Shown: one piece after another, positions 18,426 to 54,132 of the stretch
Numbering within the stretch: position 1 is the stretch's first letter
Layout of the letters: each line of letters starts with the position of its first letter
From: a virus
DNA: 64,000 nucleotides
Reading direction: 5' to 3' (one strand)
Virus record (IMG/VR): IMGVR_UViG_3300042261_002269
Span: 124,001 to 188,000 of that record
Program-made: the position numbers and the translations under genes
Notes under the pieces: model-generated
The model's database searches: none
The model's input: the letters and a program-made list of their open reading frames with translations, nothing else
What the model was told of the DNA's origin: nothing

Positions 18426-18851
18426 ATGATAAAGAAAATCTTTTTGTTAATTTTATTGTTGTTTGTGGGTTGTAGCCAACATTTCCAGGTAAGACAGGTC
18501 GATGTCAACAAGACCTATGTGCAATATTTACACAATAAAGAAAGAGCATCTAAAAACATTAAAACACTAGAATTAGATGATTCTTTGTCTTTATTTGCAC
18601 AAAAACATGCAGAATGGATGGCGACAAAGGGATTGATGGTACACTCAAATTTAAATTTTGACTTTAAGACCAGAGGCGAAAACATTGCTTTTGGGCAAAA
18701 AACAGAAAATGATGTTATGAAATCCTGGATGGGCTCTACTGGACATCGTAGAAATATTCTAAATTCGAAATTTGAATATATGGGAGTAGGAGTTGCCACC
18801 AATAAGAACGACACAATTTATTGGTGTGTAGTTTTTGGCAGCAATAATTAG
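18426..18851 (+). CDS. CAP/SCP-domain lipoprotein, 141 aa
   Basis: The signal peptide ends in a lipobox (LLLFVGC), predicting lipidation at Cys16. The mature part is a CAP domain: YLHNKERA, HAEWMA, GENIAF and SWMGSTGHRRNIL are the family's hallmark segments, with His residues at the expected cavity positions. It would sit in the host envelope. Phage lipoproteins often block superinfection, but CAP function here is unknown. No Shine-Dalgarno; an AATAAATA box lies 5 bases before the ATG. Confidence 0.82.
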   Translation: MIKKIFLLILLLFVGCSQHFQVRQVDVNKTYVQYLHNKERASKNIKTLELDDSLSLFAQKHAEWMATKGLMVHSNLNFDFKTRGENIAFGQKTENDVMKSWMGSTGHRRNILNSKFEYMGVGVATNKNDTIYWCVVFGSNN

Positions 18852-19153
18852 AAAAGTCTTTTTTGTTTAAAAGGGCTTTCTTTTTTTGGAGGCTTTTTGG
18901 GTTCTATTTGTTCTACCCAGCCTTGATCTACAGCATCTTGAATTCTGTGCCAAACTACCCATTTTGCATTGGGAATCTTGCTTTGTTTTCTCCATGAAGC
19001 AAAGTCTCTTTTGTTATAAAAATTATCTAGATTTGCAGCAAATATATGTCGGATATTGCTTAGGAGAATGTGTATTTCTCCATAATCTTTATATTCTCGC
19101 CATAAGCAATAGATAGGTTCTTCTTTTTGCTCTAACCAACTCTTAAAATTCAT
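18848..19153 (-). CDS. Small protein with capsid-targeting-like N-terminus, 101 aa
   Basis: Begins MNFKSWLEQKEE, matching the signature M-x-F-x-x-W-L-x-x-E shared by many proteins here and similar to the T4 capsid-targeting sequence. The rest is Trp-rich and basic at the C-terminus (PKKPPKKESPFKQKRLF), which could suit DNA contact inside the head. No Shine-Dalgarno is clear. Overlaps the CAP gene end to end by 4 bases. Confidence 0.6.
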   Translation of the reverse strand: MNFKSWLEQKEEPIYCLWREYKDYGEIHILLSNIRHIFAANLDNFYNKRDFASWRKQSKIPNAKWVVWHRIQDAVDQGWVEQIEPKKPPKKESPFKQKRLF

Positions 19154-19161
19154 GCATGTAT

Positions 19162-19725
19162 CTATTGTTTGAGCGGTAAATTTTTAAGGATAGGAACATT
19201 GGATAAAGGCTTATTTTTATCTGTATTTTTTTCTAACAACATAGTTTTTTTGGCTTCAGCAGTGGATTGAACTTGACCGGATTTTTCTTTTAATTGTTTC
19301 AACTCTAATTCCAGTGCTACAACCCGCTCATAAAGATTTTTATAATCCGTATTGTTTTTGTCGGTTTTATCCGCAGCGATTTGTTCTTTGATATTTGTAA
19401 GTGCTGTTTCTAAAGAAGCCAGACGTTCGTTGCGATTCTTTGTGTCGGTATCGATATCATTAAACTTTTTTTCTAAACTGGTAATAGACTCTTTTAGTGC
19501 ATTGCTGTCTATTTTTAATAATTTTTGTTCTTGTTCTTTAATTTCTGAATTGATAGCACGTAAGTCAACTTTAATTTCTTGAATTGTGGCAAGAATATCA
19601 GAGTTAGCTCTTTCGTTTGAGGTATGGATTATATTAAAGAGCGTGACAAAAAGAATAGTGAGAAGACTGAGGATTGCACCGCCAAAAATCCTCCAAAACC
19701 AAGGTGATCCTTCTAATTCTGACAT
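19162..19725 (-). CDS. Membrane-anchored coiled-coil protein, 187 aa
   Basis: One transmembrane helix near the N-terminus (about residues 14-33, FGGAILSLLTILFVTLF) is followed by about 110 residues of heptad-rich coiled coil. AAGGATGG precedes the ATG, and a TATAAATA late-promoter-like box lies about 65 bases upstream. Function unknown; possibly a host-membrane or lysis-stage protein. Confidence 0.7.
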   Translation of the reverse strand: MSELEGSPWFWRIFGGAILSLLTILFVTLFNIIHTSNERANSDILATIQEIKVDLRAINSEIKEQEQKLLKIDSNALKESITSLEKKFNDIDTDTKNRNERLASLETALTNIKEQIAADKTDKNNTDYKNLYERVVALELELKQLKEKSGQVQSTAEAKKTMLLEKNTDKNKPLSNVPILKNLPLKQ

Positions 19726-19790
19726 ATACCATCCTTATTTAAAAGTAAATCTTAAACTATTTACTCAATATAATTTAGTTTAAACAACTA

Positions 19791-19798
19791 AATATTTA
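19791..19798 (-). promoter_or_regulatory. Late-promoter-like TATAAATA box
   Basis: Exact T4 late consensus on the minus strand, about 65 bases upstream of the coiled-coil membrane protein gene at 19725. Confidence 0.45.
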
Positions 19799-19799
19799 T

Positions 19800-20105
19800 A
19801 TGAAATTCAAAGAATGGTTGCTTTTAGAAAAAGATCAACGCACAGGATCAAAAATCGGCTTATATCCGCCAATTTATGATGTCGTAGGGCAATATCCTCC
19901 TCTATACACAACTCCTGGTTCTGCTGATGTTGTTACATATCTTTGGATTCATTATGGAGATAAAGGACCTCCAGGTAAAAATGGAATCATGGCTCCTCAC
20001 GATCATAAAGAAAATGTAAATAAACGCAGGGGTCAAAAGAAACTAATATCTGACAATACCAAACCCAACATTCTTGGTGATAAGTCCTCCTCCAGGATTG
20101 GCTGA
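19800..20105 (+). CDS. Small protein with capsid-targeting-like N-terminus, 101 aa
   Basis: Starts MKFKEWLLLEKDQ, one of the closest matches to the T4 capsid-targeting peptide, with LLLE as a possible gp21-type cleavage site. The remainder is Pro/Tyr/Gly-rich and has a basic C-terminal half; no domain recognised. No Shine-Dalgarno: ACTAAATATTTAT lies directly before the ATG. Its 3' end overlaps the convergent methyltransferase gene by 63 bases. Confidence 0.6.
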   Translation: MKFKEWLLLEKDQRTGSKIGLYPPIYDVVGQYPPLYTTPGSADVVTYLWIHYGDKGPPGKNGIMAPHDHKENVNKRRGQKKLISDNTKPNILGDKSSSRIG

Positions 20106-20621
20106 GGGATATTTTGCCACATGCCAAAATAAAGGCAATTTGTCTTGTTTAATTCCATTCCAGAAATAGATCATATCTTGGTTTATGATGATATCGTCAT
20201 AGAACACAATGCCTTTATATTCTTTTGTTAGTTTTTCGTGAATTTCTTGTTCTGCTTTACCATCGTGTCCTACATCTACAAAGATCATGTCATAACCTTC
20301 AAATTTCAAAAATTCCAAATAATCTTGAGGAACAATATGGCGATACAAATTGTCTATTTTGGGAAGTTCCCATTTATCCAATAAATCATAGGTATCAACT
20401 TCTGCACCGGCCCTTGCCATAATAGCAGCACTTGCTCCTGTGCAAGTGCCTAATTCTAAGACTTTTTTCACTTTAAACAGAGAAATATAAGCTGCTAACC
20501 CCCAATAAAAATTGGTTTGAAGAACAGAATCCCGAATAGTAGAAGGAAAATCTGCTGTAAAAGGCTCAATATTAATATCTAAGGCTTCTGTTTCTTTTAT
20601 AATTTTTGTTAAAGAGTCCAT
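20043..20621 (-). CDS. Class I SAM-dependent methyltransferase, 192 aa
   Basis: Rossmann methyltransferase: LELGTCTGASAAIMA is motif I, VDTYDLLD follows as the second strand with an acidic end, and DMIFVDVGHDG is the motif IV region, as in O-methyltransferase/CmcI-like families. The start is set at the ATG with AAAGGA 8 bases upstream (20621) because upstream in-frame sequence lacks a ribosome site. Substrate unknown; sugar or virion-protein methylation would fit nearby glycosyltransferases. Confidence 0.75.
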   Translation of the reverse strand: MDSLTKIIKETEALDINIEPFTADFPSTIRDSVLQTNFYWGLAAYISLFKVKKVLELGTCTGASAAIMARAGAEVDTYDLLDKWELPKIDNLYRHIVPQDYLEFLKFEGYDMIFVDVGHDGKAEQEIHEKLTKEYKGIVFYDDIIINQDMIYFWNGIKQDKLPLFWHVAKYPSANPGGGLITKNVGFGIVRY

Positions 20622-20686
20622 TTTTAATCCTTTGAATAATCCTAAATAAAATAGCGTGACTATATTATAAAAGCGAAAGGTTAATG

Positions 20687-21220
20687 ATGAGAAATTGGAA
20701 ACAGTTTTTATTAGAGAAGACAGAACATGAATATTCGTCAACCCATGTAAATTTGCCGCATGCCCTTGCTGAGAAAGTAATGAAATTTGGAAAGAAATTA
20801 ATTCCAGATTCTGATGTGTATGATATAGAAGATTATGGCAGAGAAGATGATTGTCATGTAACTATTTTGTATGGTTTACACGACAAAACGCCAGACCGTG
20901 TTAAAAAGGTCGTTAAAGGCGAAAAGCCTATTACATTTGAAATCAAAGAAACATCGGTCTTTGAAAATGAAGAATACGATGTAGTAAAATTCACTGTGGA
21001 AAGTAAAGATTTACATCGTCTAAATGAAAAATTAAGAAAAAATTGCAGTTTTAGCTCGACGCATCCAAAGTACGAGCCCCACTGCACAATTGCCTATGTC
21101 AAAAAAGGAACAGGCAAAAAGTATGCAGGCAATACAGAATTTTCAGGAACTACTGTGACAGTAGATGAAATCGTCTTCAGCAATCAATATCGCATCAAAA
21201 CAAAAATTGTTTTGAAATGA
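20687..21220 (+). CDS. 2H phosphoesterase (Acb1-like class) with capsid-targeting-like N-terminus, 177 aa
   Basis: Two HxT motifs, HVT at about residue 57 and HCT at about residue 132, each followed by hydrophobic strand residues (HVTILYG, HCTIAYV), define the 2H phosphoesterase/2'-5' RNA ligase-like fold. T4 Acb1, which degrades CBASS cyclic nucleotides, belongs to this class with similar HxT spacing. The protein starts MRNWKQFLLEKTE, a strong match to the capsid-targeting signature, so it may be packaged and injected. An ATG one codon earlier exists, but AAGG spacing favours 20687. Specificity for CBASS signals is inference. Confidence 0.78.
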   Translation: MRNWKQFLLEKTEHEYSSTHVNLPHALAEKVMKFGKKLIPDSDVYDIEDYGREDDCHVTILYGLHDKTPDRVKKVVKGEKPITFEIKETSVFENEEYDVVKFTVESKDLHRLNEKLRKNCSFSSTHPKYEPHCTIAYVKKGTGKKYAGNTEFSGTTVTVDEIVFSNQYRIKTKIVLK

Positions 21221-21464
21221 TATTGTCATATGGCACGCCAATAGTAAGCATTGGCATGCCATCGAGAGTAATCTTGCCATTCATGCCAATTCCTAAGTTG
21301 TCTGAATTAATTCCTTTGATATTAATGGCGATAATCCGTCTACCGCCAATGATATCTCCCACTTCTAATTCACGAGGTCCATTTTTGACAAAAACTTTCA
21401 CTTTCTTTGCATTAACAATCTCAAGTTGTCCGAAATCAAAGTAACATTCTTTATTTGGGGTCAT
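21195..21464 (-). CDS. Hypothetical beta-rich protein, 89 aa
   Basis: Unknown function. The middle (VKVFVKNGPRELEVGDIIGGRRI) looks like a small beta barrel of the kind found in hint/autoproteolytic or SH3-like folds, but no catalytic Cys/Ser is evident. Coupled to the upstream small gene by ATGA; overlaps the convergent 2H gene by 26 bases. Confidence 0.6.
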   Translation of the reverse strand: MTPNKECYFDFGQLEIVNAKKVKVFVKNGPRELEVGDIIGGRRIIAINIKGINSDNLGIGMNGKITLDGMPMLTIGVPYDNIISKQFLF

Positions 21465-23305: not shown

Positions 23306-23367
23306 TGATTCCTCAAATATCAAATAAATTAGTTATGCGTTAATAAAAAATTTTGGCTAAAAATATT

Positions 23368-28622: not shown

Positions 28623-28739
28623 GTATGTCTCCTTGGTGAATAAGATCTCTGAATCTTATCCTATTAAACATTTTAAAGCAAGAGCAATAAGTTCTAATTT
28701 TTTAGTCAAAAGATTTGCAGCCAATGAACTAAATAAGAT

Positions 28740-29129
28740 ATGCGATTTAAGCACTTTATCATTAATGAACAAGGTCCTGAAATGGGAATGGGAGGAGCCG
28801 CTCCTCCTGGTGGACCTCCAGGGCTCGGTGGACCAGATTTAGGTGGCGGTGCCGGTGCTGCTCCTCCAGGCCCTCCTCCTGGCTTAGGTGGACCTCCAGA
28901 TTTAGGTGGTGGCTTAGGGGCTCCTCCAGGCCCTCCTGTCGGTGGTAATCCAACTTTACCTAAAGATGATGAAGATATTGATTTTTTTGATTTTTTAGAT
29001 AGAAAATATAACAAAGACAAAGAAAACAAAAAGCATAACAAAAAAGGCGCATCTCCTGAAATGCCTCCATTAAACACTAATACTGGAAATATTCCTCCAG
29101 GGCCGCAACCTCCTTTTTTGACACAATAA
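28740..29129 (+). CDS. Gly/Pro-rich protein with capsid-targeting-like N-terminus, 129 aa
   Basis: Begins MRFKHFIINEQGP, a clear capsid-targeting-like start with IINE as a candidate cleavage site. Residues 18-75 are low-complexity Gly/Pro/Ala/Leu (PPGLGGPDLGGG type); the rest is acidic then Lys-rich. Could be an unstructured internal head protein. No Shine-Dalgarno; ACTAAATAAGAT lies immediately before the ATG. The Pro-rich reading on the opposite strand is a shadow. Confidence 0.65.
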   Translation: MRFKHFIINEQGPEMGMGGAAPPGGPPGLGGPDLGGGAGAAPPGPPPGLGGPPDLGGGLGAPPGPPVGGNPTLPKDDEDIDFFDFLDRKYNKDKENKKHNKKGASPEMPPLNTNTGNIPPGPQPPFLTQ

Positions 29130-36346: not shown

Positions 36347-36376
36347 AAAAGATAAAGCCAGAAAACTACATACATT

Positions 36377-36850
36377 ATGCAAAATTTCAAAAACTTTTTA
36401 ATCAACGAAGAAAAAAGCCATTTGGGACATCGAGTTAATGATGTATTATCTGGCATGGAAGATGTTCAAAAAGACATGGAGAATTTAGGAAGCAGACACC
36501 TAAACAGACTGGCTAATGAAATTGTGAATCAGATTAGGAAAATCTTACACAGTCAATGGTCAAAAGAAGCCAGACCGTATCTTCCTGTATTGCGAAAAAT
36601 TGGAGTTTATCTCGCCAAGGCAATTGAAGAAAAAGGCGATTTAAAAGAAGTGATACCTAATGCAATACGAGAAACTCAAAAACTTATTGGTCAATTGAAG
36701 GTAAAAACAAATAATTTACAAGTTCCTGCAATTGGAAACATTAGCGATAATGACTTCAAGCCAACGCCACAACAACCTCAACCTCAGCCACAACAACAGC
36801 CTCAGCCACAACAGCCTCAGCCAGGAATGTCGCTTATGTTCAAATACTAG
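36377..36850 (+). CDS. Protein with capsid-targeting-like N-terminus and Pro/Gln tail, 157 aa
   Basis: Begins MQNFKNFLINEEKSH, a strong match to the capsid-targeting signature with LINE as possible cleavage point. A helical middle (about residues 20-115) is followed by a PQPQQQP-type low-complexity tail. No Shine-Dalgarno; ACTACATACATT lies directly before the ATG. Probably an internal virion protein; function otherwise unknown. Convergent with the Nudix-like gene, overlapping it by 11 bases. Confidence 0.65.
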   Translation: MQNFKNFLINEEKSHLGHRVNDVLSGMEDVQKDMENLGSRHLNRLANEIVNQIRKILHSQWSKEARPYLPVLRKIGVYLAKAIEEKGDLKEVIPNAIRETQKLIGQLKVKTNNLQVPAIGNISDNDFKPTPQQPQPQPQQQPQPQQPQPGMSLMFKY

Positions 36851-37541
36851 GCTGATTAGGTTGAGAGTTAGGCATGTCTTGATCTTGATTATTTAAACCC
36901 AACATTTTTTCAATTTGAGCAATTACAGACGGATTTGATAAAAGCTTGGTCAATCCATCATGAAATCTAATTCCTTTAAATGCATTTTTGCCTTTGATTT
37001 CATCTAAAGTAGCCCAATCAATCCCCAACGATTCCATTGCATGACTCAAGCCAGAAGATGATCCTGGGGAGGGTTTAAACATTACGCTTTTCTCTTTAGG
37101 AACTAAGCCCAAGAAATTTTGGTAATTTATATTTTTGCCTTTAACAGGAATGTTCCAAGTCATAGATTTTTCTATTTTCAACCAAGGACCGCCATAGCCT
37201 ATTTCCTCTTCAACTTCGTCTTTGGCGGCTTCTAAAGGATTTCTTCCACCTAATGCTCCACCAATTGTTCCCCAGCATCCTTTCATGTACATATTATTAA
37301 ATTCTGGATCATCTAAGTGATGCAATCCTGCTCCATAACTTCTATCAACGCTCTTGCCATCAATCCAATTGTTGATATAATTACTTCTGTGATTTAGGCA
37401 AATTCTTTTAGTATCAGCGGCCAAAATCAAAACGCCAGCAGCCACAGTTGAGCCTCCAGAGCCATTATCGCCCCAGAAAAAGTTATCTCCACCGACATTG
37501 CCATCGCTCATTTCTGTGAGCCATTCAATAAAATTTCTCAT
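36840..37541 (-). CDS. Nudix-like protein with capsid-targeting-like N-terminus, 233 aa
   Basis: Starts MRNFIEWLTEMSD, a capsid-targeting-like peptide (WLTE). Residues about 90-115 contain a Nudix-box-like stretch, GGRNPLEAAKDEVEEEIGY: the catalytic xEVxEEIGY half is conserved, but the first Glu of the GX5E part is Arg, so activity is uncertain. The C-terminus is Asn/Gln/Pro-rich. If packaged, it could hydrolyse a nucleotide-diphosphate compound early in infection. AGAGGA precedes the ATG. Confidence 0.7.
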   Translation of the reverse strand: MRNFIEWLTEMSDGNVGGDNFFWGDNGSGGSTVAAGVLILAADTKRICLNHRSNYINNWIDGKSVDRSYGAGLHHLDDPEFNNMYMKGCWGTIGGALGGRNPLEAAKDEVEEEIGYGGPWLKIEKSMTWNIPVKGKNINYQNFLGLVPKEKSVMFKPSPGSSSGLSHAMESLGIDWATLDEIKGKNAFKGIRFHDGLTKLLSNPSVIAQIEKMLGLNNQDQDMPNSQPNQPSI

Positions 37542-37551: not shown

Positions 37552-38256
37552 TTATATTGTGAAACGACGTTGTATTCTGTCTCTCAGTGTTGCCTTAGGT
37601 GGTTCACTTGTAGGTTGACCAACCAATTGATCTAAACTAGGAACTGTTGCTGGCGACAAAGGAGTTCTCATTCTGTTCATAAGGCTTAATGGAGGAGACT
37701 TTGCGACATTTTCATCAGGAAGGGGAGGCATATCTTGAGGCAAAATATCTGAAAGATTATTTACTATTGGTCTTTGCCTTTCATCTTCGCCTTTTTGAAG
37801 TGTCACTTGTTCATTAATCCAGTTATTAAAATCTTTAAAAGCTTTGGTTTTTTTATCGGCAAAAAATAAAAGAATTCTGCTATTGCCAGATTGACCAAAG
37901 AAGGGAGTAACAAGTCGGTATTTTGATGCGTCATAGTCTAAACTAATGGGCTTTCCCCCTTTAGTAAGAGCTAGAATGAAATTTTCTATATTTTTCACGA
38001 CAGCAAAATGTATTCGTTCATCTGTTAAATTGAGCGTTTGTGACAAAAGAACTCGACCTTCTGTGGCTGCTTTAAGATTTGCTACAACTACTGCCGGATT
38101 AGTAATTACAATGTCTCCAATTTCTGGTTTGATATCAAATTTTCCATAATAGATTTTGTTTCTCAGATAATTAGAAACGACTTCTTTATTATACTCTTCG
38201 TTTTCTAATTTTATCCCTGTTTTGACATTGACCCATTCCGTAAAATTTGATATCAT
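37552..38256 (-). CDS. Probable internal virion protein, 234 aa
   Basis: Begins MISNFTEWVNVKTG, a looser version of the capsid-targeting signature (F-x-x-W-[VL]) without the following Glu at the usual place. The middle is mixed alpha/beta (FAVVKNIENFILAL, RLVTPFFG); the last 80 residues are Pro-rich and basic at the end (RDRIQRRF). The start at 38256 is preferred for its GGAG; the in-frame codon at 38295 is further upstream. Function unknown. Confidence 0.55.
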   Translation of the reverse strand: MISNFTEWVNVKTGIKLENEEYNKEVVSNYLRNKIYYGKFDIKPEIGDIVITNPAVVVANLKAATEGRVLLSQTLNLTDERIHFAVVKNIENFILALTKGGKPISLDYDASKYRLVTPFFGQSGNSRILLFFADKKTKAFKDFNNWINEQVTLQKGEDERQRPIVNNLSDILPQDMPPLPDENVAKSPPLSLMNRMRTPLSPATVPSLDQLVGQPTSEPPKATLRDRIQRRFTI

Positions 38257-44374: not shown

Positions 44375-44757
44375 AGAAAAGAATTACAATCCATGATGTT
44401 AAACAAGCTCTTTTTGACGAAAGATTTCGTGATTCTCTGCCAGAAGAGTTGCAAGAAGATGTCCAAAAATTCCTCAAAAACCCCACCTGTGGATGTAATA
44501 CTTCTGTCTATATCAACATAATGAAAAAAGGACATAAGCAATTACTAGAATACTTTCCCACTAAAGTAGCCCCAACCGATCAAGAATTAAAAGAAGAAGT
44601 TGAACAACCACACATTAATAATTGGCAAGTCATCAACTGCACAACCCATGAACTTTCCGAAAAATTAAGAGAATTAGGCCCTGGAAGAAAGCAAATTGAT
44701 ATCGCACGATGGCAAGACCAAGTTACAGTAATCGTGAACCATTTAGATGGCGTTTAA
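44371..44757 (+). CDS. Hypothetical protein, 128 aa
   Basis: Mostly helical N-terminal half with a CGCN pair, then a linker and a small beta-rich C-terminus (QVTVIVNHLDG). ATGA overlap with the upstream zinc-ribbon gene. Function not recognised. Confidence 0.65.
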   Translation: MKKRITIHDVKQALFDERFRDSLPEELQEDVQKFLKNPTCGCNTSVYINIMKKGHKQLLEYFPTKVAPTDQELKEEVEQPHINNWQVINCTTHELSEKLRELGPGRKQIDIARWQDQVTVIVNHLDGV

Positions 44758-45014
44758 TCTTCCTCAAACTTCTTCTTTTTCTTAGGTTTTCCCTTTAAAG
44801 AACTTTCCTGATCTTTATAATGAGGTTCAGCATCTTCCTTGGCCTTAGAATGTGCTATTGCCCAAGGGCACAACTTATCCCCTTCATATCCTTTTTTGCA
44901 TGCTGCTTTGCTGAATTTATCAGGATGTTTTTGTAACATGGCCGCAACCGTACCACGCCAACCTTTCTTAGTGACTTCGCACAATTGTCTATGTTCTAGC
45001 CATTCTAAAAACAT
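44754..45014 (-). CDS. Small Lys-rich protein with capsid-targeting-like start, 86 aa
   Basis: Starts MFLEWLEHRQL, a shortened version of the signature (W-L-x-x). A middle domain has two cysteines (AACKKGYEGDKLCPW), and the C-terminus is a poly-Lys tail. It immediately follows the five-paralogue array on the same strand. Perhaps an internal DNA-binding head protein. AGGAG precedes the ATG. Confidence 0.55.
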   Translation of the reverse strand: MFLEWLEHRQLCEVTKKGWRGTVAAMLQKHPDKFSKAACKKGYEGDKLCPWAIAHSKAKEDAEPHYKDQESSLKGKPKKKKKFEED

Positions 45015-45015: not shown

Positions 45016-46719
45016 TTAAGCTCCTATGACACTTTGTTCTTTTTCTCTAATTTTAGACTTTAAACTGTTGAGTATGGAATGAAATTCTGGTCTTACTTTG
45101 TTTGGATCTATATCTATTATTTGCTTGATATTGTCTAATATGCCAGGACTATTTCTTAAAATCCAATCACAACTCGCAATAAATGCATTTACACTTTTTC
45201 GAAATCCATGAAGCGATATTGTATATTGATAATCTATGGGATACGACTTAATAGTTGTTATGGTCCTTCTCAAATCATTTGCACGCTCCGTTGCTTTATT
45301 TAAAAGACCCTTGTAAGCTTTTCTTTCTGGCGAATCTTCATACCGATGAGATGTGGATGATTGCCTTGTGTGAACAATAGATTTGTCCTGCAATATAGGC
45401 ATTTCTGTGTCATCTGGCAGCTTTTCTGATACGCTGTTTTGTTTAAATCTATCACTCATATAAGGCAAATTACGAATCACCGTTATCATTTCTAGCTTGG
45501 AAGTATCAAAAAATGCACCTTGTGTAGGTTCTGCTCTGTGAATTGCACCGGAATGTTGCAAATCAGCAATACTTGAATAACCAAGTCGCATCAATAATCT
45601 TCTCCATCTTCCTGGCCAATGCCCATCTTTTCCATCTTGTCTTGCCCATTGACGAGCCAATTCTTCAGTCACACGATATACGAATTCATCTTTATTTCTG
45701 GGCAAAACACTTCCTTCTGAAGCCTTTAAGTACCAAATATCTGTAGCTTTAGACAAAGCCAAGCCTATATTCAAATCATATTCATTAGCTATTTCCATCA
45801 ACCCCTTTTTCTTGGGAAAATCCTTACTGATAAGATTTGTTAACTGTTCTTTTTCTACTCTATCATATTCGGCTTTAAAATTAGTAACAAGACTTTTGGC
45901 TTTTTCAAATAACTTAGATTCGTTTATTTTAGACGGGTCAATGCCTGAAGAAGGTTTTCTGACTAAAGCATCAAATTCTTGAGCATCTTTGCCATATAAC
46001 AAAGGAGATTTGATGTACTTTAATAAGAAATTGAACTTAGGATTGTATTTGATTGCTTCTATTGTCTCTGTAGACAGTTGAACCCAGAATTTCCCCGAAT
46101 GATGCACACTGCCATACACTTCATCCACGGCACCTCCAAATATGCTGTCTTTGCCTTTTAGTTCACAAAAAGCTTCGTAACAAACACTTTGTTTTGCGTG
46201 GAATGCTGCTTGACTAGTACTATGTAAAAGCTCTAAAAATGCAAAGTGTCTACATCGCAACAAATATTCGTAGATTTCTTTTAAGCATTTTTCTTCTTCG
46301 ATTCCTTCTGTAGGAAGGCTTCTATAAACTGATTCTAAAATCTTCGCACTATCAATATCTATTTTGTATTGATTTACATCGAAATTTTTGTCTTTAATGC
46401 CTATATCTTTAATGTCTTCATTGACGATAAAAACAACAATATATGGTCTTTTTGATGCAAAATAACTAAAATCCGTGTTCTTGTCTATGACGATTTTAAT
46501 GGGGTAGCCATATAATGCCATTGGGGTTTCTTGTTCTTTGTTTTCTGTTCTAGGCCAGATAGAAATTCTAGGCACATTGGTGAATGTAATCCAGATATTG
46601 GCTTCAGGAATTCCTTCTTGTTTCAATTTATTGGCAATTTCTTCTAATTGCTTAAATTTGTTAAAAGGCCGATGTTCTAAACCAGCCTCAATAAAAAAGA
46701 ATTCTTTAAATGAAACCAT
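45016..46719 (-). CDS. Tandem paralogue 5 of large capsid-targeted family, 567 aa
   Basis: Unknown function. Begins MVSFKEFFFIEAGLEHRPF, where FIE fits the T4-type cleavage motif. Block A (residues about 10-110) has PRISIWPR and MALYGYP, then RPYIVVFIVNE; block B (about 345-425) has a Trp-rich segment, PGRWRRLLMRLGY, SGAIHRAEPTQGAFFDTSKL. Middle and C-terminus are helical and diverged. GGAG precedes the ATG at 46719. Last of five consecutive genes. Confidence 0.75.
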   Translation of the reverse strand: MVSFKEFFFIEAGLEHRPFNKFKQLEEIANKLKQEGIPEANIWITFTNVPRISIWPRTENKEQETPMALYGYPIKIVIDKNTDFSYFASKRPYIVVFIVNEDIKDIGIKDKNFDVNQYKIDIDSAKILESVYRSLPTEGIEEEKCLKEIYEYLLRCRHFAFLELLHSTSQAAFHAKQSVCYEAFCELKGKDSIFGGAVDEVYGSVHHSGKFWVQLSTETIEAIKYNPKFNFLLKYIKSPLLYGKDAQEFDALVRKPSSGIDPSKINESKLFEKAKSLVTNFKAEYDRVEKEQLTNLISKDFPKKKGLMEIANEYDLNIGLALSKATDIWYLKASEGSVLPRNKDEFVYRVTEELARQWARQDGKDGHWPGRWRRLLMRLGYSSIADLQHSGAIHRAEPTQGAFFDTSKLEMITVIRNLPYMSDRFKQNSVSEKLPDDTEMPILQDKSIVHTRQSSTSHRYEDSPERKAYKGLLNKATERANDLRRTITTIKSYPIDYQYTISLHGFRKSVNAFIASCDWILRNSPGILDNIKQIIDIDPNKVRPEFHSILNSLKSKIREKEQSVIGA

Positions 46720-46740
46720 CGTAATACTCCACACTATTTA

Positions 46741-48438
46741 TTATATGTTATCCAAATTTAAACACGTATCCAGCCTGTGCAATATTGGCGATAGTTCCTT
46801 TCTTGAATCTAAATCAATTTCCTGTAAAGATCTCCGAATTTCATTTGCTAAATGAGGCTTATTACGGGCTATCCAGTCATGAATCTTAACATATCTATTG
46901 ACCAAATTTTTTAATCGTTTTACAGAGGCTCTTTCTTTTCCTATTTCAACTTCTGGATTTACCATAAAGTACTTTATATAATCGATGCTGCTTGCTAATT
47001 GAGTAAATAATTGGTTTGCATAGACAGCCAAGCCTGTAGCTTTTTTCTCTTCTGGAGAATTATAGTAATTCCAACCTGTAGGAGTTTTCTTTCGTTGAGA
47101 GCCTCCTGGCTCAAGATGTCCTGAATTATATTTATCGACCAATACAGTACGAGGATCTAGATGCGATCTGTTTACTAACACCGCCACCATCTCTAATTTT
47201 CTTGTATCGAAAAATGCACCTTGAGTAGGCTCAGAACCATGTACAGCCCCAGTATGTTGTAAGTCTACTATATTTGAGATTCCAAGTCTTTTAAGGATTC
47301 TAGCCCATCTAGACGGCCAATATTTATGCTTATCATCTTTATCAGCCCATTGCATTGCTAAATTTTCTGCTATTCTATAAACAAATTGATTTTCATTTTC
47401 AATTGGCATGACAGAGCGTGCGGCGTTTATTATTGCTAAATTAAGATCTAATTGGTGTTCAGTTGCGATTTTTATAAGCTCATCCTTTTTAGGAAATGTT
47501 TTGCTATTCAATACATCATTATGTTGCTTTATAAATTCTGCAAAAGAACTATTACACTCTTTAATAAATGTCACGGTTTTGTTAAACAATTCTTCTTTGT
47601 CTATTTTAGATGGATCGATGCTAGCTGTAGACTTTCTAATTTGTTTGTCAAAATCTAACAATTCCTTTCCGTATAGGATTACTTTATTGGCATATTTGAC
47701 CAAATGACTGAATTGGGGGTATTTTTCGATTTTTAGAACTACTCCCGCAGATAATTCTGCTTTATATTCTGATCCTGCTAGTTCAGAATATAGCTCTGGT
47801 TCAAATTTCTCTACACTATGATAAACTCTATCTATCGTTTCGCCAAATATAGTATCGCCGCCATGTAGGGTATCAAAAGCATTAAATAAAACACGTTCTA
47901 AGGCTATATCCACTGCATTTTCTGCCATCTGCAACACATTAGGAACTGGCGATACAGCACCATGAGTATGATTTTGTATGTAACTGAAAATTACACTTAA
48001 GCATTCTTGTTCTTCGTCGCTTGTATTGGTTATTTTTCTAAATACTGTTTTAGCTACGCTAGCATAATTTTTACTTAAAGAATATTGACTAATGTCAAAA
48101 TCAGTTTTTCCTCCAATATCGTTAATGTTTTCATTAACAATAAAAATAACCATAAAAGCTCGATCACAGCCGTAATAGTAAAAATCTTCAAATTTACGAC
48201 CATAATGATTTATAAAGTTCAATGGATATGCAAACAATGCAGTTGGAGTTCCTTGTTGTCTTGTTTCTGATTGGGGCCAAATAGAAATTCTAGGAACATT
48301 AGTAAATGTAAGCCATATATTGCTTTCAGGAACTCCTTGTTGAGTCAATTTAGCCAAAATATCCTTGATTTTCGTGAATCTGTTGGAAGCACGATCTTTT
48401 AAATTAGACTCAAGTAAAAATTCCTTAAATGAAACCAT
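46741..48438 (-). CDS. Tandem paralogue 4 of large capsid-targeted family, 565 aa
   Basis: Begins MVSFKEFLLESNLKDRASN, with LLES at the expected cleavage place. It shares block A (PRISIWPQ, TALFAYP, RAFMVIFIVNE) and block B (WPSRWARILKRLG, GAVHGSEPTQGAFFDTRKL) with its neighbours. It differs in lacking the GLEHR motif after the signal. AGAGG precedes the ATG. Function unknown. Confidence 0.75.
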   Translation of the reverse strand: MVSFKEFLLESNLKDRASNRFTKIKDILAKLTQQGVPESNIWLTFTNVPRISIWPQSETRQQGTPTALFAYPLNFINHYGRKFEDFYYYGCDRAFMVIFIVNENINDIGGKTDFDISQYSLSKNYASVAKTVFRKITNTSDEEQECLSVIFSYIQNHTHGAVSPVPNVLQMAENAVDIALERVLFNAFDTLHGGDTIFGETIDRVYHSVEKFEPELYSELAGSEYKAELSAGVVLKIEKYPQFSHLVKYANKVILYGKELLDFDKQIRKSTASIDPSKIDKEELFNKTVTFIKECNSSFAEFIKQHNDVLNSKTFPKKDELIKIATEHQLDLNLAIINAARSVMPIENENQFVYRIAENLAMQWADKDDKHKYWPSRWARILKRLGISNIVDLQHTGAVHGSEPTQGAFFDTRKLEMVAVLVNRSHLDPRTVLVDKYNSGHLEPGGSQRKKTPTGWNYYNSPEEKKATGLAVYANQLFTQLASSIDYIKYFMVNPEVEIGKERASVKRLKNLVNRYVKIHDWIARNKPHLANEIRRSLQEIDLDSRKELSPILHRLDTCLNLDNI

Positions 48439-48439
48439 C

Positions 48440-50152
48440 TTACCTCTGTTCTTTAGCCTGAATTCCTAAAGATAATTTGTCCAATGCTGGCAAAAACTCC
48501 TTAATGTGATCATTACGCTCAATACCATCCAATAAATATTTGATTTCTCTAGGGTTATAAAAGCCATAACCCGAATTGTAATTTAATATTTCATCATTTA
48601 TTTTTAGGTATCTATCAACAATCTTTTCTATACTTTCAACATCCTCTTTAGAAATACTACGAGGATACAGAGCTATGGTCCCAATATTCCTAAGAGCATA
48701 ATACAATTTCTTAATTGTATCGTTTACACTTGCTCTCAGACCTTGTAAACGTTTTTGTTCTGGACTTGCCAAATAATCTACTTGGACTCTGTTTCTTTGT
48801 TCTCTGCCCCCTCTAACTTCATAAGGGCTTTCTTGTTGAAAACGAGAATCTGTATGGGATCTATTTCTGATTACTGCTGTCAAAACTAAATTTCTCGTAT
48901 CTAAAAATGCTCCTTGGGTTTCTTCTGATGAATGAACAGTACCAGTCTTTTTTAAGTCCACTACATTGGTAAAGCCAACCCTGGTTAAAATTCTCCTCCA
49001 CCTAGAAGGAGAAAATTCTGGTTTATTGTCTTTCCGTGACCATTGATAAGCCAATTGTTGAGCAAGTCGATAGATAAATTGCCCCTCATTTCTAGGCTGA
49101 TAAGCATCTACGACCGTGTTTATAGAAGCAGGCAGATCTAACCCATATTCTTTACAAATTTCCATAAACTGTTTCTTTTTAGGGAAATCTTCAACATATA
49201 TGCTTTGATGTCTTGCGTAATCAAATTCTTTCTTTTTTTGCATGCAACTGTTTATGAATTCCTCTGCCATTTCTAGAACTTGAGGCTTGTCTTTATACAA
49301 ATCCTGCATAATTTCGCCTAAAATAGACTGGGATATTCTGACTTGTGCATCAAGTTCTATTAATTCTTCTTTGGTTAAACTGTCGCCATCCATATACTTC
49401 TTGAATCTTTGCAATTCTGGAGATTTGTTGATCAAATGTATAAGATTTGCATCTAATGACACACTAATTGTGTTATAAAAATCCTTCCGATCAAGCCTAT
49501 AACCACTAGCCACATAATATACGTGCCATATTCGCTCTCCAAAAATACTATCAGGTCCAGATAAGTATAAATAATCTTTCAGAAAGCTAGCAAGAGCAAA
49601 ATTTGCCGCAGATTTGACCTTGCTTTCAATGTAATCAGGGTCTATTTCGGATTTTACTCCAAATTTATCCGTGCTGTTATCTAACATCAAGTTTTCATTG
49701 CAATAATTATAGATCAATTTGAGATATTTGTTGTTTTGTTTATTGCTTTGCTGATAAACTTCATTGATTATTTCTTCGGTTGTTCTGGATCTGAGCTTAT
49801 CAAGTAAGTCGAATTTTTTGTAACGATCTGCTGTTCCAATGTCGTTTATTTCTTCGTTGGCCACAAAAACAACCATATAATCTCTGCCAAATGCATAATC
49901 GCTAAATGAAAACTCCCATTCTAGAATATGTTTTACGGGATAAGCATATAATCCATGAGGCGTGCCCTGTTCTTTAGTAGCAGATCCGCCCCAAATGGTA
50001 ATTCTAGGAACATCAGTAAATGTAACCCAAATGTTGTTTTCTGGGATCTGTTGCTTGACAAGTTTATCGAATACATCTCTAAGTGTATTAAACTTATTAA
50101 AAGCACGATGTTCCAATCCGCCTTCTATGTAAAAAAAATCTCTAAACCCCAT
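48440..50152 (-). CDS. Tandem paralogue 3 of large capsid-targeted family, 570 aa
   Basis: Begins MGFRDFFYIEGGLEHRAFN. Block A has PRITIWGG, HGLYAYP and DYMVVFVANE; block B has FSPSRWRRILTRVGF, TGTVHSSEETQGAFLDTRNL. GGAG precedes the ATG. The start overlaps the previous paralogue's end by 11 bases, so the array is probably one transcript. Function unknown. Confidence 0.75.
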   Translation of the reverse strand: MGFRDFFYIEGGLEHRAFNKFNTLRDVFDKLVKQQIPENNIWVTFTDVPRITIWGGSATKEQGTPHGLYAYPVKHILEWEFSFSDYAFGRDYMVVFVANEEINDIGTADRYKKFDLLDKLRSRTTEEIINEVYQQSNKQNNKYLKLIYNYCNENLMLDNSTDKFGVKSEIDPDYIESKVKSAANFALASFLKDYLYLSGPDSIFGERIWHVYYVASGYRLDRKDFYNTISVSLDANLIHLINKSPELQRFKKYMDGDSLTKEELIELDAQVRISQSILGEIMQDLYKDKPQVLEMAEEFINSCMQKKKEFDYARHQSIYVEDFPKKKQFMEICKEYGLDLPASINTVVDAYQPRNEGQFIYRLAQQLAYQWSRKDNKPEFSPSRWRRILTRVGFTNVVDLKKTGTVHSSEETQGAFLDTRNLVLTAVIRNRSHTDSRFQQESPYEVRGGREQRNRVQVDYLASPEQKRLQGLRASVNDTIKKLYYALRNIGTIALYPRSISKEDVESIEKIVDRYLKINDEILNYNSGYGFYNPREIKYLLDGIERNDHIKEFLPALDKLSLGIQAKEQR

Positions 50153-51893
50153 TTGGCTCCAATTTTGCTTTAAGTCTATTTAATACAGGAATAATACGAC
50201 CAGTATAGTCTTTTACATTAAGACCATTAAGATCCTTTAATAATTCAAAAATTTCTTTTTTATCAATCCCTATTTGCTCAAAGTTACCAGATAGCCATTT
50301 GTAAATAGACAAGAATTTTTGAATAGCACCCGTTATTGCAGACACACGATGTACTGGCACTGGAGCATGAGATCTTGCAAAGTAATGAAGATTAGAAATT
50401 TCATCCCTTAAAGCCATAACATAAGAATAAGCCTTATCTGCCAAAGCTTTTTGTTGTTTTTCTTCTGGAGTTCCATAGTAAGAACTTAGTGAACTAGTAG
50501 GATCTCTTTGTCTTTGTCTTTTTCCTCCTGTCAACTTTTCTGTTTCTAATGAAGCATCATCGCTTTGTACAGGACGATAGTCAATATGCGATATATTATT
50601 GATAGAAGCTATCATTTCTAATTTTCTTGTGTCAAAAAATGCAGCTTGTGTGGGTTCACTAGCGTGAACGGCTCCAGTGTGTTGTAAATCTGCGATATTG
50701 GTAAATCCAATTTTCTTTAATATCATAGCCCATCTAGCTGGCCAATAATCCTCTTTCCCATCTTTTCTAGCCCATTGAAGTGCCAGTTGTTCTGTAAACC
50801 GGTAGACAAATTGAAGCTTGTTTCGAAGTTTATAAGTTCCAGTCATATGTCTTAAAGCATCGATTATGCTCAGTCCATTTTCTTTGCAGAAAGCCGTAAG
50901 TTCTTTCTTTTTAGGAAAATTATAACGATACACAGATCTCAACCTTTGATCTTTAATTTGTTTAAATGTCTTGATACAGGTTTTAATGAATTTTCTGACG
51001 GACGCTTTAATTTCGGCTTCGTCATTCTTCAAATTTTCGATAATTTCGGCCACACCAGGGCCTGACTGTCTGATTTTTTTGTCAAAATCTATTAACTCTT
51101 GCTTGTTCAAATAATAGGTATATTGTTGCAGATCTTTAAACTTATCCTCATTGTAAGGGCTGTTGATTATTCGTTTTACGTCATAAGATAGTTCAACAAT
51201 AATTCTGCTAAAAATATCATCTGTATCTTCATGATCCGTTCTATAATAAACATCATAAATTTGATATACGCTATTTCCGAATATAGTATCGAACCCTTTC
51301 AAACTCTGAAGTTTTTGTTTTAATATATTCGAAAACACCAATCGTGCTATCTGTTTTGATTTTTGATCGAAAATATCCTTATTCAACCAATAAGCATTCA
51401 ATCTGTTACTAGAATCTGATATTTCGATATATTCATCTGTGAAATAATTATGTATTTCTTCAATGTACTTACAAGATTCATCATTTGCCAATTTTAAATA
51501 AACAGCATCTACAACGTCTTGATTTTTCACAGATTCATTGTTCTTAAACATATTGAATTCAATATGTTTTGCTCCAATATCGTTGATGGCTTCGTTAGCA
51601 ATAAATACAACCATATAAGGACGAGTGTTACCATAATAACGAAAGTCCTGTCCAGCAGCAAGCACTTGTTGAATAGGATAAGCAAATAATGCATGGGGAG
51701 TTCCTTGACTTTTAGTTGCGGATCTGCCCCAAATGGTAATTCTAGGAACTTCCGAAAATGTCACCCAAATATCGGAATCGGCAATTCCTTGATTAGCAAG
51801 CATATTTCTAATATCTTGCAGCTTTTTTAATTTATTAAAAGCCCGATGTTCTAGACCGGCTTCCGATATATTTAAAAATTCTTTGAACAACAT
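50142..51893 (-). CDS. Tandem paralogue 2 of large capsid-targeted family, 583 aa
   Basis: Begins MLFKEFLNISEAGLEHRAF, the longest signal of the set. Block A has PRITIWGR, HALFAYP and RPYMVVFIANE; block B has WPARWAMILKKIGF, TGAVHASEPTQAAFFDTRKL. No Shine-Dalgarno; ACTAAATAACTTATT lies directly before the ATG, almost identical to the leader of paralogue 1. Function unknown. Confidence 0.75.
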   Translation of the reverse strand: MLFKEFLNISEAGLEHRAFNKLKKLQDIRNMLANQGIADSDIWVTFSEVPRITIWGRSATKSQGTPHALFAYPIQQVLAAGQDFRYYGNTRPYMVVFIANEAINDIGAKHIEFNMFKNNESVKNQDVVDAVYLKLANDESCKYIEEIHNYFTDEYIEISDSSNRLNAYWLNKDIFDQKSKQIARLVFSNILKQKLQSLKGFDTIFGNSVYQIYDVYYRTDHEDTDDIFSRIIVELSYDVKRIINSPYNEDKFKDLQQYTYYLNKQELIDFDKKIRQSGPGVAEIIENLKNDEAEIKASVRKFIKTCIKTFKQIKDQRLRSVYRYNFPKKKELTAFCKENGLSIIDALRHMTGTYKLRNKLQFVYRFTEQLALQWARKDGKEDYWPARWAMILKKIGFTNIADLQHTGAVHASEPTQAAFFDTRKLEMIASINNISHIDYRPVQSDDASLETEKLTGGKRQRQRDPTSSLSSYYGTPEEKQQKALADKAYSYVMALRDEISNLHYFARSHAPVPVHRVSAITGAIQKFLSIYKWLSGNFEQIGIDKKEIFELLKDLNGLNVKDYTGRIIPVLNRLKAKLEPNGV

Positions 51894-51924
51894 AATAAGT
51901 TATTTAGTGTCAAAGAATCCTATT

Positions 51925-53625
51925 TTACATTGTATTTTCGTAGGCAGTGTCGATTGTAGATTTAATATTGTCTAAGAGAGGCTTGATAGCTTCTGAATTG
52001 TTTTTAAATTCAATTTGTGATATTAGTCTTTTTAAAGAATACAAATCATATCCCCAAGAAGATTGATTTTGAGCCCAATTTAAGACTTTCTTGAAACTAC
52101 TGAAAGCTTTTTTCAAATACTCAACGTATTCACTTGACACACTAACGCCAAAATCCAAACTCCTTTCGACCCTGGACAAAGCATTCTTTAAATCAACAAA
52201 TCGACTTTTGGTATTATATTGCCTTGCTTCTGCTTCTTTTTCCTGAGGCGAACTAAAATAATTATTAGGAGAGCCAGATTTTCGTTGTTCTCGTCCCCCA
52301 GATATGAAGCTGGGACTTTGATAAAAACGATAATCATTATGGGATTTATTGCGTACCAATCCGACCATCTCTAATTTTCTTGTATCAAAAAACGCACCTT
52401 GCGTAGATTCGGCAACATGCACTGCACCAGTATTCCTTAAATCTGCTATGTTAGTATATCCAATTGCTTTAAGTATTCTGGTCCATCTAGATGGATAGTA
52501 TCGATACTTTCCATCCTTTTCTGCCCATTGCATTGCTAATTGTTCAGTAAAACGATAGATGACCTGACTGTCATTTTCAATCTTATTTCCTGAAGTTTGC
52601 ATGTTTTTAAAGGCCCTAACCACATCCAATCCATGATTTTGGGCAAATTGAAGCAATTTCTTTTTATTGGGAAAGTCTTTGCCGAATGCCTTGCTGATTC
52701 TTAGTTTATTTATGTTTTTTTGTTTTTTGACACAATTATCAAACAGCATTTGAATTATTTTTGTGATCTCGGGCTCATCTTGACGAAGTCTTTTTATCAC
52801 TTCAGATATTTTAGGAATGCCATCTTTTCTAATTTGCGAATCGAATCTTAGCAATACATCTAATGGCAAAAGTGTACGTCCATATTGACTAATGTAGTCA
52901 AATTCGGGAATATTTAAAATTTTATCAAATGCTTCCAAAGATAAACTCACATTTAAATATGTGTCGCTGAAAAGTTGGATGCTTTGAGAGTTGTGATAAT
53001 CTTTATAATGTCTATAAACGTATGGTATTTCATCTCCAAGTATGGTATCCGAACCTCGTAAATCCATAACCTCGTCTAAGTTTTCTTCAATAACATGTCT
53101 TAATGTATCTTTTGATTTGTATTTGATTTCATCATCGTCTATTGATGAAAAGTCAATATACCAATAAGATCCAAATTTTTTACTAATCAAATTAAAATAA
53201 GGATTAGATTTTATTGATTTATCGATGTTTTTATAAACAGACCTAACGACCTCAGGAGTTTCTGCTGCTTTAAATCTGTTTCTAATCTTGAAATCGGCAT
53301 TTGCTCCTCCTATATCGTTGATTTTTTCGTTTGCAATAAATACAACAATATAAGGTCTGTCAGTGGCGTATTCGCCAAAAGTATCTTTTCTTTCAAGAAT
53401 TTTTGTTATAGGATAGGCAAACAAAGCATGAGGAGTGCCTTGAGCTTTATCTGCTGAGCCTCCCCAAATAGTAATTCTAGGAACTTCCGAATAAGTTACC
53501 CAAATATCACTTTCAGAATATCCTTGTTGCATAAGCAAATTGCGAATTTCTTCTAATTTTTTGAACTTGTTGAAAGCACGATGCTCTAAACCAGCCTCAA
53601 ATATCACAAAATCTTTAAATCCCAT
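51925..53625 (-). CDS. Tandem paralogue 1 of large capsid-targeted family, 566 aa
   Basis: First gene of the array. Begins MGFKDFVIFEAGLEHRAFN. Block A has PRITIWGG, HALFAYP and RPYIVVFIANE; block B has YPSRWTRILKAIGY, TGAVHVAESTQGAFFDTRKL. No Shine-Dalgarno; ACTAAATAAGTTATT abuts the ATG, a late-promoter-like box that would give a leaderless message. Function unknown; block layout is what I would expect of a two-part enzyme or toxin-like fold. Confidence 0.75.
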   Translation of the reverse strand: MGFKDFVIFEAGLEHRAFNKFKKLEEIRNLLMQQGYSESDIWVTYSEVPRITIWGGSADKAQGTPHALFAYPITKILERKDTFGEYATDRPYIVVFIANEKINDIGGANADFKIRNRFKAAETPEVVRSVYKNIDKSIKSNPYFNLISKKFGSYWYIDFSSIDDDEIKYKSKDTLRHVIEENLDEVMDLRGSDTILGDEIPYVYRHYKDYHNSQSIQLFSDTYLNVSLSLEAFDKILNIPEFDYISQYGRTLLPLDVLLRFDSQIRKDGIPKISEVIKRLRQDEPEITKIIQMLFDNCVKKQKNINKLRISKAFGKDFPNKKKLLQFAQNHGLDVVRAFKNMQTSGNKIENDSQVIYRFTEQLAMQWAEKDGKYRYYPSRWTRILKAIGYTNIADLRNTGAVHVAESTQGAFFDTRKLEMVGLVRNKSHNDYRFYQSPSFISGGREQRKSGSPNNYFSSPQEKEAEARQYNTKSRFVDLKNALSRVERSLDFGVSVSSEYVEYLKKAFSSFKKVLNWAQNQSSWGYDLYSLKRLISQIEFKNNSEAIKPLLDNIKSTIDTAYENTM

Positions 53626-53655
53626 AATAACTTATTTAGTGCCAAAGAATCATTT
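53625..53655 (-). promoter_or_regulatory. Late-promoter-like leader of the paralogue array
   Basis: On the minus strand, GATTCTTTGGCACTAAATAA then GTTATT lead straight into the ATG. The same about 29-base leader, with two base changes, precedes paralogue 2 at 51893. ACTAAATA resembles the T4 late TATAAATA. Confidence 0.5.
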
Positions 53656-53663
53656 TTTGTCCC

Positions 53664-53692
53664 TTGTGCGGCTTGTTCGGCATACATATAAT
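53664..53692 (+). promoter_or_regulatory. Sigma-70-type promoter before the HAD gene
   Basis: TTGTGC, exactly 17 bases, then perfect TATAAT (53687-53692), 21 bases before the HAD phosphatase ATG at 53713. Best host-type promoter seen in the window. Confidence 0.6.
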
Positions 53693-53712
53693 GTCGAGCT
53701 AAAGAGGGAAAT

Positions 53713-54132
53713 ATGAAATTTCAGATGTGGTTAGAAAATCAAAAAGTTGTCACTTTTGACTTTGATAGCACGCTTACCGTGCCTCAATGGGACGATGAAT
53801 CCCAATTGTGGTTCAATGGAGATTCAGATAATGACGATCATCTAAACCACGAAAGATTTGAGCTAATCCGAGATTATGCCAAAAAAGGATATTCTGTGAT
53901 TATTGTAACTAGCAGAATTTCTAGAGATCGTCTTCCAATTGTAGATATGGTCAAAAGACATCATCTGCCAATATCAGATGTGATTTGCACCAATATGGGA
54001 CCTAAAGGGCCAATTCTTGAGAAATTAGGCTCATGCAGGCATTATGATGATATGCCCAAAGAACATGAAGATCCTGATTCGGCATTTTCAGGCGAATGGA
54101 TTAAAGTCCATCATCCGATGGATCACGCCTAA
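53713..54132 (+). CDS. HAD-family phosphatase with capsid-targeting-like N-terminus, 139 aa
   Basis: FDFDSTLTVP (about residues 15-24) is the HAD DxDxT nucleophile motif, VTSRIS supplies the Thr/Ser motif II, and HYDDMPKEHED resembles the C-terminal acidic motif. Similar small HAD domains act as polynucleotide or nucleotide phosphatases in phages. It begins MKFQMWLENQ, resembling the capsid-targeting signature but shorter, so packaging is less certain than for others. AGAGGG precedes the ATG. Confidence 0.75.
   Translation: MKFQMWLENQKVVTFDFDSTLTVPQWDDESQLWFNGDSDNDDHLNHERFELIRDYAKKGYSVIIVTSRISRDRLPIVDMVKRHHLPISDVICTNMGPKGPILEKLGSCRHYDDMPKEHEDPDSAFSGEWIKVHHPMDHA

Follow-up and report, generated by a model that had tools for sequence, protein, structure and literature searches.

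A T4-type capsid-targeting-like N-terminus on otherwise unrelated proteins of a T4-like phage

Why would proteins that are otherwise unrelated begin with the same ten or so residues? This question is raised by a window of 64,000 nucleotides belonging to a 190-kb record of a T4-like phage. Relatives of this phage reach 459-595 kb and the record is probably a piece of a very large phage. The first-pass annotation had proposed that a dozen or more unrelated proteins of the window share an N-terminal signature built on two aromatic residues. On re-reading the sequence, all 14 listed genes were found in place, with N-termini as described. Otherwise unrelated tagged proteins do exist, but five of those listed are tandem paralogues (45016, 46741, 48440, 50142 and 51925; 32-40% identity to one of them), so that the 14 genes represent about 10 families. 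They are given below, with scores from a matrix trained on this phage and four relatives (five genomes), T4, LR756511 and phiKZ being kept out.

18848..19153, minus strand: 101-aa protein, MNFKSWLEQKE, matrix score 18.1; without a match in Pfam or PHROG
19800..20105, plus strand: 101-aa protein, MKFKEWLLLE, matrix score 20.0; signature-bearing homologues in G001 and G003
20687..21220, plus strand: 177-aa 2H phosphoesterase (Acb1 / 2'-5' RNA ligase type, Pfam), MRNWKQFLLE
28740..29129, plus strand: 129-aa Pro/Gly-rich protein, MRFKHFIINE; signature-bearing homologue in G001
36377..36850, plus strand: 157-aa conserved protein, MQNFKNFLINE; tagged orthologues in five of five genomes and in IMG/VR loci
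36840..37541, minus strand: 233-aa Nudix-type protein, MRNFIEWLTE; PF00293, E 0.001, 19.5 bits (cut-off 21.1, just missed); phrog_9999
37552..38256, minus strand: 234-aa protein, looser signature MISNFTEWVN, matrix score 13.1
44754..45014, minus strand: 86-aa protein, looser signature MFLEWLEHRQLCE, matrix score 14.8
45016..46719, minus strand: paralogue 1 of a family of about 570 aa, MVSFKEFFFIE
46741..48438, minus strand: paralogue 2, MVSFKEFLLE
48440..50152, minus strand: paralogue 3, MGFRDFFYIE
50142..51893, minus strand: paralogue 4, MLFKEFLNISE
51925..53625, minus strand: paralogue 5, MGFKDFVIFE; first 18 residues modelled with low confidence
53713..54132, plus strand: 139-aa HAD-type phosphatase, MKFQMWLENQK; PF24694 over residues 13-106, E 2e-5, under cut-off; phrog_1238

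Gene starts in the record (290 predicted genes) come from an in-house predictor; that of 28740 was shifted by hand to an upstream ATG, and 45016-46719 most likely begins at ATG 46719 rather than at an upstream GTG. Searched in its strict form, M-x(0-3)-[FYW]-x-x-[FW]-[LI]-...-E, the signature opens 15 of the 290 genes, against 0.37 expected from internal positions, and it also lies beyond the window (record positions 13767, 14395, 38435, 51158, 63277, 79518 and 94199). Shuffled N-termini give 0.77 matches on average, with a maximum of 5 in 1000 shuffles. Far from being equally common inside proteins, the signature follows only 1 of 844 internal Met positions. Internal decoys and shuffles thus rule out a chance origin of the motif. 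The matrix retrieves 33 N-termini in the record and 186 over the five genomes, where 16 are expected, a chance share of about 9%. Compared from residue 16 onward, the best 157 tagged proteins fall into 123 families. Among the T4-type core enzymes identified, the signature is absent from gp41, gp46, gp47, gp17, gp20, UvsW and NrdA; a gp61-like primase gives the one weak matrix match and is likely a false positive.

The strongest matrix columns are a Phe and, three positions on, Trp, Phe or Tyr. In T4, mutants have mapped targeting to residues 4 and 7 of the capsid-targeting sequence and gp21 processing to residues 8 and 10 (PMC9026906). The conserved columns coincide with both pairs. A putative processing site [LI]-x-E follows the core within 8 residues in 41% of the tagged set, compared with 18% after shuffling and 7% in untagged proteins. 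Most tagged proteins thus lack this exact site within that distance; the protease may be more tolerant, it may cut farther on, or some tags may stay unprocessed. In the window, 37552, 44754 and 53713 carry both aromatics without a clean [LI]-x-E directly behind them. In the 36377 family (33 unique sequences), the F and E of the tag are invariant and the F/Y and L/I nearly so, while adjoining residues vary. Moreover, AT-rich genomes mostly encode the Phe by TTT and GC-rich ones by TTC; the codon tracks genome GC while Phe is kept, which indicates that the amino acid is under selection.

The gp21-like prohead protease that the first reading called for is indeed encoded in the record (PF03420, E 1.7e-27), and the family is also present in 10 of 10 relatives checked. 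At one locus (L005:5518-8560), the protease, encoded at 5518-6198, lies in an uninterrupted run of genes with gp23 and a gp22-like acidic coiled-coil protein, the latter assigned by position and composition. The gp23 homologue itself begins M..RFLNE-A in four of the five matrix genomes. Searches with phmmer returned no homologues of T4 gp67, gp68, gp22, gp55 or Alt.

Built without T4, the matrix ranks the three internal proteins of that phage whose capsid-targeting sequences are known or inferred 4, 5 and 8 among its 263 genes, and T4 gp61.1 (MKTFKEFIKED) emerges as a candidate internal protein of T4 itself. The 595-kb relative LR756511 has 28 matches against 1.7 expected. In phiKZ, where the search did not find the gp21-type protease family either, there are 0 matches at score 9. 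KVP40 and the cultured phages related through their capsid protein (Mel-JY01, LIS04, Syn33) show about the chance number of matches or a few more; T4-like phages as a whole thus do not share the expansion of the tag. In the cyanophage DSL-LC03 the set is small (6 matches against 0.7 expected) and includes proteins beginning MKTFSQFLLE and MKSFNQFLSE. A 635-kb phage displays a second tag dialect, MK[HY]LKKFNES, a hint that such tagging may have originated or diversified on more than one occasion.

From these sequence comparisons, we consider it quite probable that these proteins share a capsid-targeting sequence of the T4 type, mediating prohead docking, cleavage by the gp21-type protease and ejection with the DNA, in a clade that would have enlarged the T4 scheme until each genome carries about 20-50 tagged proteins. 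According to this model, a propeptide of about 10-12 residues would use its two aromatics to dock late proteins, otherwise unrelated, onto the core of the prohead. After assembly, the protease would remove the tag behind [LI]-x-E, and the mature proteins would stay in the head and leave it with the DNA at ejection. The sequence itself shows the signature and its restriction to N-termini, the conserved residues, the protease gene, the spacing of the promoter-like boxes and the variety of the cargo; that the proteins dock, are cut, packaged and ejected, and then act in the host, we infer.

The cargo is diverse. Domains recognized on tagged proteins include Acb1-like, Nudix, HAD, HD, ADP-ribosyltransferase (Arr), C39 peptidase, thymidylate kinase and FMN reductase. 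In 53713, the first HAD motif (VVTFDFDSTLT) starts directly behind the tag; tblastn of this protein against phages gave no match. The 20687 product matches both PF23474 Acb1, at 32.5 bits, and PF13563, at 37.1 bits, the cut-off being 27 for each. We predict that it is Acb1-like and likely an anti-immunity (anti-CBASS) enzyme; the wider 2H superfamily model PF13563 scores slightly above the Acb1 model, so the match does not fix its substrate. Its relatives start with or without a tag-like sequence, the one in LR756511 being untagged, and the IMG/VR search returned no close Acb1 relatives. An S-adenosylmethionine lyase match fell below the Pfam cut-off, and DUF3293 matched that protein better; no anti-restriction claim is based on it. 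For the five-paralogue family, AlphaFold yielded a weak model (mean pLDDT 65.5, pTM 0.42) with no PDB match at E <= 0.001, and no relatives appeared in the IMG/VR search or in ten related records.

The tagged set had first been read as a common packaging signal defining an injected effector set. The packaging signal is well supported: the T4 tags are recovered, the residues match and [LI]-x-E is enriched. The effector set is conjectural, several members being core- or linker-like and five forming a single paralogous family. It is indeed possible, although we give it well under an even chance, that the tagged proteins are packaged mostly as structural parts of the prohead core or as passive passengers, few of them acting in the host. 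36377, the most conserved tagged family, and the Pro/Gly-rich 28740 contain no known enzyme domain in Pfam and look like prohead-core or linker proteins rather than effectors, and in T4 the prohead core itself includes gp67, gp68 and the internal proteins (PMC9026906). Yet Acb1, Nudix, HAD, HD, Arr, C39, thymidylate kinase and FMN reductase domains have no obvious role in a head, and in T4 host defence is countered by IPI and probably also by IPIII (PMC9391042).

A destination unrelated to the capsid seems improbable. With its two aromatics spaced by three residues and a Leu behind them, the tag could make a short amphipathic helix addressed to the host membrane, a replication compartment or the tail/neck. 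Such a helix would explain neither why the matrix recovers T4 capsid-targeting sequences nor why the protease-site Glu, needless for a helix, is invariant in orthologues; the tag moreover co-occurs with the gp21-type protease, and phiKZ, without that family in our search, has none.

The tagged genes have a second common feature. A T4-type late-promoter-like box lies 3-8 nt before the ATG in 69 of 157 tagged genes (44%) and in 66 of 2275 other genes (odds ratio 26). T4-type late promoters carry a TATAAATA-like box at -13 to -6 of the start site, or CTAAATA from -12 in Aeh1 (PMC1524935). Here the box, [CAG]TA[AT]ATA, peaks sharply 4-5 nt before the ATG of tagged genes. In the window, such boxes precede six of the genes:

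19159..19165, minus strand: ATAGATA, ends 5 nt before the ATG of 18848-19153
19788..19794, plus strand: CTAAATA, ends 5 nt before the ATG of 19800
28729..28735, plus strand: CTAAATA, ends 4 nt before the ATG of 28740
36366..36372, plus strand: CTACATA, ends 4 nt before the ATG of 36377
51901..51907, minus strand: CTAAATA, ends 7 nt before the ATG of paralogue 4
53633..53639, minus strand: CTAAATA, ends 7 nt before the ATG of paralogue 5

A Shine-Dalgarno-like sequence accompanies 3 of the 69 boxed tagged genes and 51 of the 88 unboxed ones. A box next to the ATG, nearly always without Shine-Dalgarno, would imply leaderless late mRNAs: in nearly half of cases, the box would be placed for transcription to start at or beside the ATG. 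This coupling of box and tag, and the leaderless mode of T4-type late expression to which it points, would be new here. That the signature is instead a by-product of leaderless translation, its first codons being selected for initiation and not for the peptide, could draw on this strong link and on the missing Shine-Dalgarno but is very improbable and already disfavoured, as more than half of the tagged genes are unboxed and mostly Shine-Dalgarno-like, other leaderless-type genes lack the motif, Phe is kept across its varying codons and the Trp codon, TGG, is not AT-rich.

Taking capsid targeting and late promoter together, some large phages might use a mix-and-match export cassette, a late promoter plus a cleavable head-loading tag that could precede nearly any gene, to preload 20-50 different proteins, anti-immunity enzymes included, into every particle for delivery before phage gene expression; for this broader proposal we see the chances as evenly balanced. 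The candidate Acb1-like enzyme might then counter CBASS at the moment of DNA entry. For uncultured large phages, a simple sequence rule would then predict the proteins that travel in the head with nothing but DNA to go on. Many proteins of unknown function would thereby become candidate first-wave effectors, in a list open to testing.

Several known systems echo parts of this scheme. The large phages SPN3US and phiKZ also fill the head with many proteins, some cut after Glu by the prohead protease, but their propeptides are mostly much longer (several exceed 100 residues) and share no short tag (PMC5694885). In P1, an N-terminal signal directs the anti-restriction Dar proteins to the inside of the head and can bring in a reporter as well; unlike the motif described here, Dar N-termini have no consensus and the full signal is longer than nine residues (PMC9024508).

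The closest parallel is T4, whose tagged set comprises three small internal proteins plus Alt. The capsid-targeting sequence of IPI, IPII and IPIII (Mullaney and Black 1996, as described in PMC9026906) has the same length, N-terminal place and pattern (MKTYQEFIAE, aromatics 4 and 7, Ile 8, Glu 10), and both systems have the same protease type and scaffold-protease-capsid gene cluster. T4 57B, an Acb1 anti-CBASS enzyme, has no clear capsid-targeting sequence (matrix score 2.5), whereas 20687, which matches the Acb1 Pfam model above cut-off, is tagged. In contrast to the three tagged internal proteins of T4, there are here about 20-50 per genome, their consensus favouring Phe as the first aromatic and Trp or Phe as the other. 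Close to half of the genes have a promoter-like box directly against the start codon, and the cargo consists of enzymes and many unknown proteins.

The window spans bases 124,001-188,000 of its virus record. The genes that the first-pass annotation had listed as sharing an N-terminal tag start as described. Of the 290 genes of the record, which were predicted without use of the motif, 15 have the strict pattern M-x(0-3)-[FYW]-x-x-[FW]-[LI]-...-E at the N-terminus. Shuffled N-termini predict 0.77 and internal positions only 0.37, which disposes of the objection that it might be as frequent inside proteins. Identifiable T4-type core enzymes do not carry it either, except for a weak match in a gp61-like primase.

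The gp21-like prohead protease called for by that annotation is present (PF03420, E 1.7e-27). Behind it in the 190,199-bp record come an acidic coiled-coil protein, which takes the place of the gp22 scaffold, and a gp23 major capsid protein. The latter shares 77% identity with its counterpart in LR756511.1, a 595-kb uncultured phage, and up to 93% with proteins of IMG/VR contigs; contigs carrying its relatives have lengths of up to 459, 533 and 343 kb. The record thus probably represents only part of a very large T4-like phage, which makes its tag counts lower bounds.

A scoring matrix was iterated over five genomes, the record (G000) and four relatives (G001-G004; stretches of 458,813, 532,729, 260,000 and 223,268 bases, with genes predicted in the same way). 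It retrieves 186 tagged N-termini (33, 53, 41, 32 and 27 from G000 to G004), where internal decoys predict 16 at the same threshold. The consensus, [ST]-F-[KR]-[EQ]-[WF]-L, continues with acidic or polar residues. Grouped by residues 16 onward, the 157 best tagged proteins fall into 123 sequence families. The claim that the rest of each protein is unrelated fails for the ~570-aa proteins at 45016-53625, five paralogues in tandem, 32-40% identical to the first. All five keep two Phe and the Glu; the segment preceding the Glu differs in length by up to 2 residues. No relatives of this family were found in Pfam, PDB folds or IMG/VR, and a PHROG search with one member gave no match.

Outside the matrix set, at a score of at least 9, LR756511.1 displays 28 matches (1.7 expected) and cyanophage DSL-LC03 6 (0.7 expected), KVP40 has 2, Mel-JY01, LIS04 and Syn33 1 each, and phiKZ none. 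Another recurrent N-terminus, MK[HY]LKKFNES with variants, was observed in LR745206.1 (634,780 bp). Of the 206 genes predicted in 150 kb of this record, 15 carry it, where internal positions predict 0.08, and many of them have a TATATA box immediately upstream. It is possibly another dialect of a packaging tag.

Selection on the tag shows in the 36377 family: tagged orthologues occur in each of the five genomes, and an IMG/VR search yielded 40 loci. All 33 unique sequences keep the first Phe and the Glu; the second aromatic residue, either F or Y, precedes [LIV][LI]-x-E, and adjoining positions vary. As many of these loci were retrieved by a pattern in the mature part and not by the tag, this conservation is not due to ascertainment alone. 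The Phe codon is mostly TTT in AT-rich genomes and TTC in GC-rich ones (GC 35-56%); thus it is the amino acid that selection keeps. The presumed cleavage site [LI]-x-E lies within 8 residues behind the core in 41% of tagged proteins; the share falls to 18% on shuffling and is 7% among untagged proteins.

Tagged genes are also coupled to a late-promoter-like box. TANATA lies 3-8 nt upstream of the ATG in 50/119 tagged versus 85/2313 other genes, significant in each genome taken alone. With the matrix-defined set, the counts are 69/157 versus 66/2275 (odds ratio 26) and the distances peak sharply at 4-5 nt; in LR756511.1, outside that set, the counts are 20/28 versus 26/818. A Shine-Dalgarno-like sequence precedes only 3 of the 69 boxed tagged genes versus 51 of the 88 tagged genes without box. 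The gene predictor prefers Shine-Dalgarno starts, a bias that tends to hide such a link; shifting the start of 28740 by hand to the boxed ATG changes one gene in these counts. T4 late promoters extend from -13 to -6, and in Aeh1 CTAAATA starts at -12 (PMC1524935), so that a box ending 5 nt upstream of the ATG would put the message start at its A. We read the boxed tagged genes as putative leaderless late transcripts. Leaderless late expression seems to extend beyond the tagged genes, since 66 untagged genes in G001-G004 and the window record have a late-type box at 3-8 nt, only 4 of them with a Shine-Dalgarno-like sequence. No gp55 homologue was identified by phmmer.

The majority of tagged proteins matched no known family. 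Those assigned in the record are as follows.

Tagged proteins of the record with a domain assignment
20687 (window): Acb1-type 2H phosphoesterase, PF23474 above cut-off
36840 (window): Nudix-type protein, just under cut-off
53713 (window): HAD-type phosphatase, under cut-off
L006:14199 (record 94199, outside the window): HD-domain protein, tagged
L002:10107 (same record, outside the window): poly(A)-polymerase-head protein, weaker tag score

In the relatives, tagged proteins include an Arr-type ADP-ribosyltransferase, two C39-type peptidases, a thymidylate kinase, an FMN reductase, a NIF-type phosphatase and proteins of radical SAM and DUF3293 type. Several known domains start at residues 13-44, shortly behind the tag. 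The Acb1 relative of LR756511.1 has no tag and those of two other large phages have a tag-like start, which suggests that tag and enzyme are separable. Elsewhere in the record, L005:12006-19517 and L007:18756-19372 encode many small Gly-rich proteins (e.g. MSWTYSSGCGEYGNGHGEGCCNGAG) from closely spaced genes, and L004:11337-11693 a 118-aa protein consisting mostly of Asp, Glu and Tyr behind MRYREESWSEWLEEAWLEEA.

The first-pass annotation had proposed a common packaging signal defining an injected effector set. At the level of sequence, the signal, its coupling to the boxes and the diversity of the cargo stand; we infer that the tagged proteins dock, are cleaved, packaged and ejected, and act in the host. 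The literature searched holds no description of such a capsid-targeting expansion in large phages.

T4 provides the yardstick. Scored blind, its internal proteins II and III come at ranks 4-5 and I at rank 8 of 263 predicted genes. The top score goes to gp61.1 (L175:18966-19130), which starts with MKTFKEFIKED and may on these grounds be an unrecognised internal protein; no report on its packaging was found in the literature. A review of Black's work (PMC9026906) assigns targeting by the T4 signal, MKTYQEFIAE, to its residues 4 and 7 and processing to 8 and 10, the same columns as aromatic-x-x-aromatic, Leu and Glu in these phages. According to an eLife paper on T4 evolution (PMC9391042), T4 internal proteins are injected with the genome, IPI inhibits gmrSD, and IPIII, once freed of its tag, probably counters host defence in the cytoplasm. 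The signal has been suggested as perhaps a means for T4-like phages to take in various proteins (PMC9026906), and the simplest account of the shared N-terminus is a greatly expanded capsid-targeting system of the T4 type.
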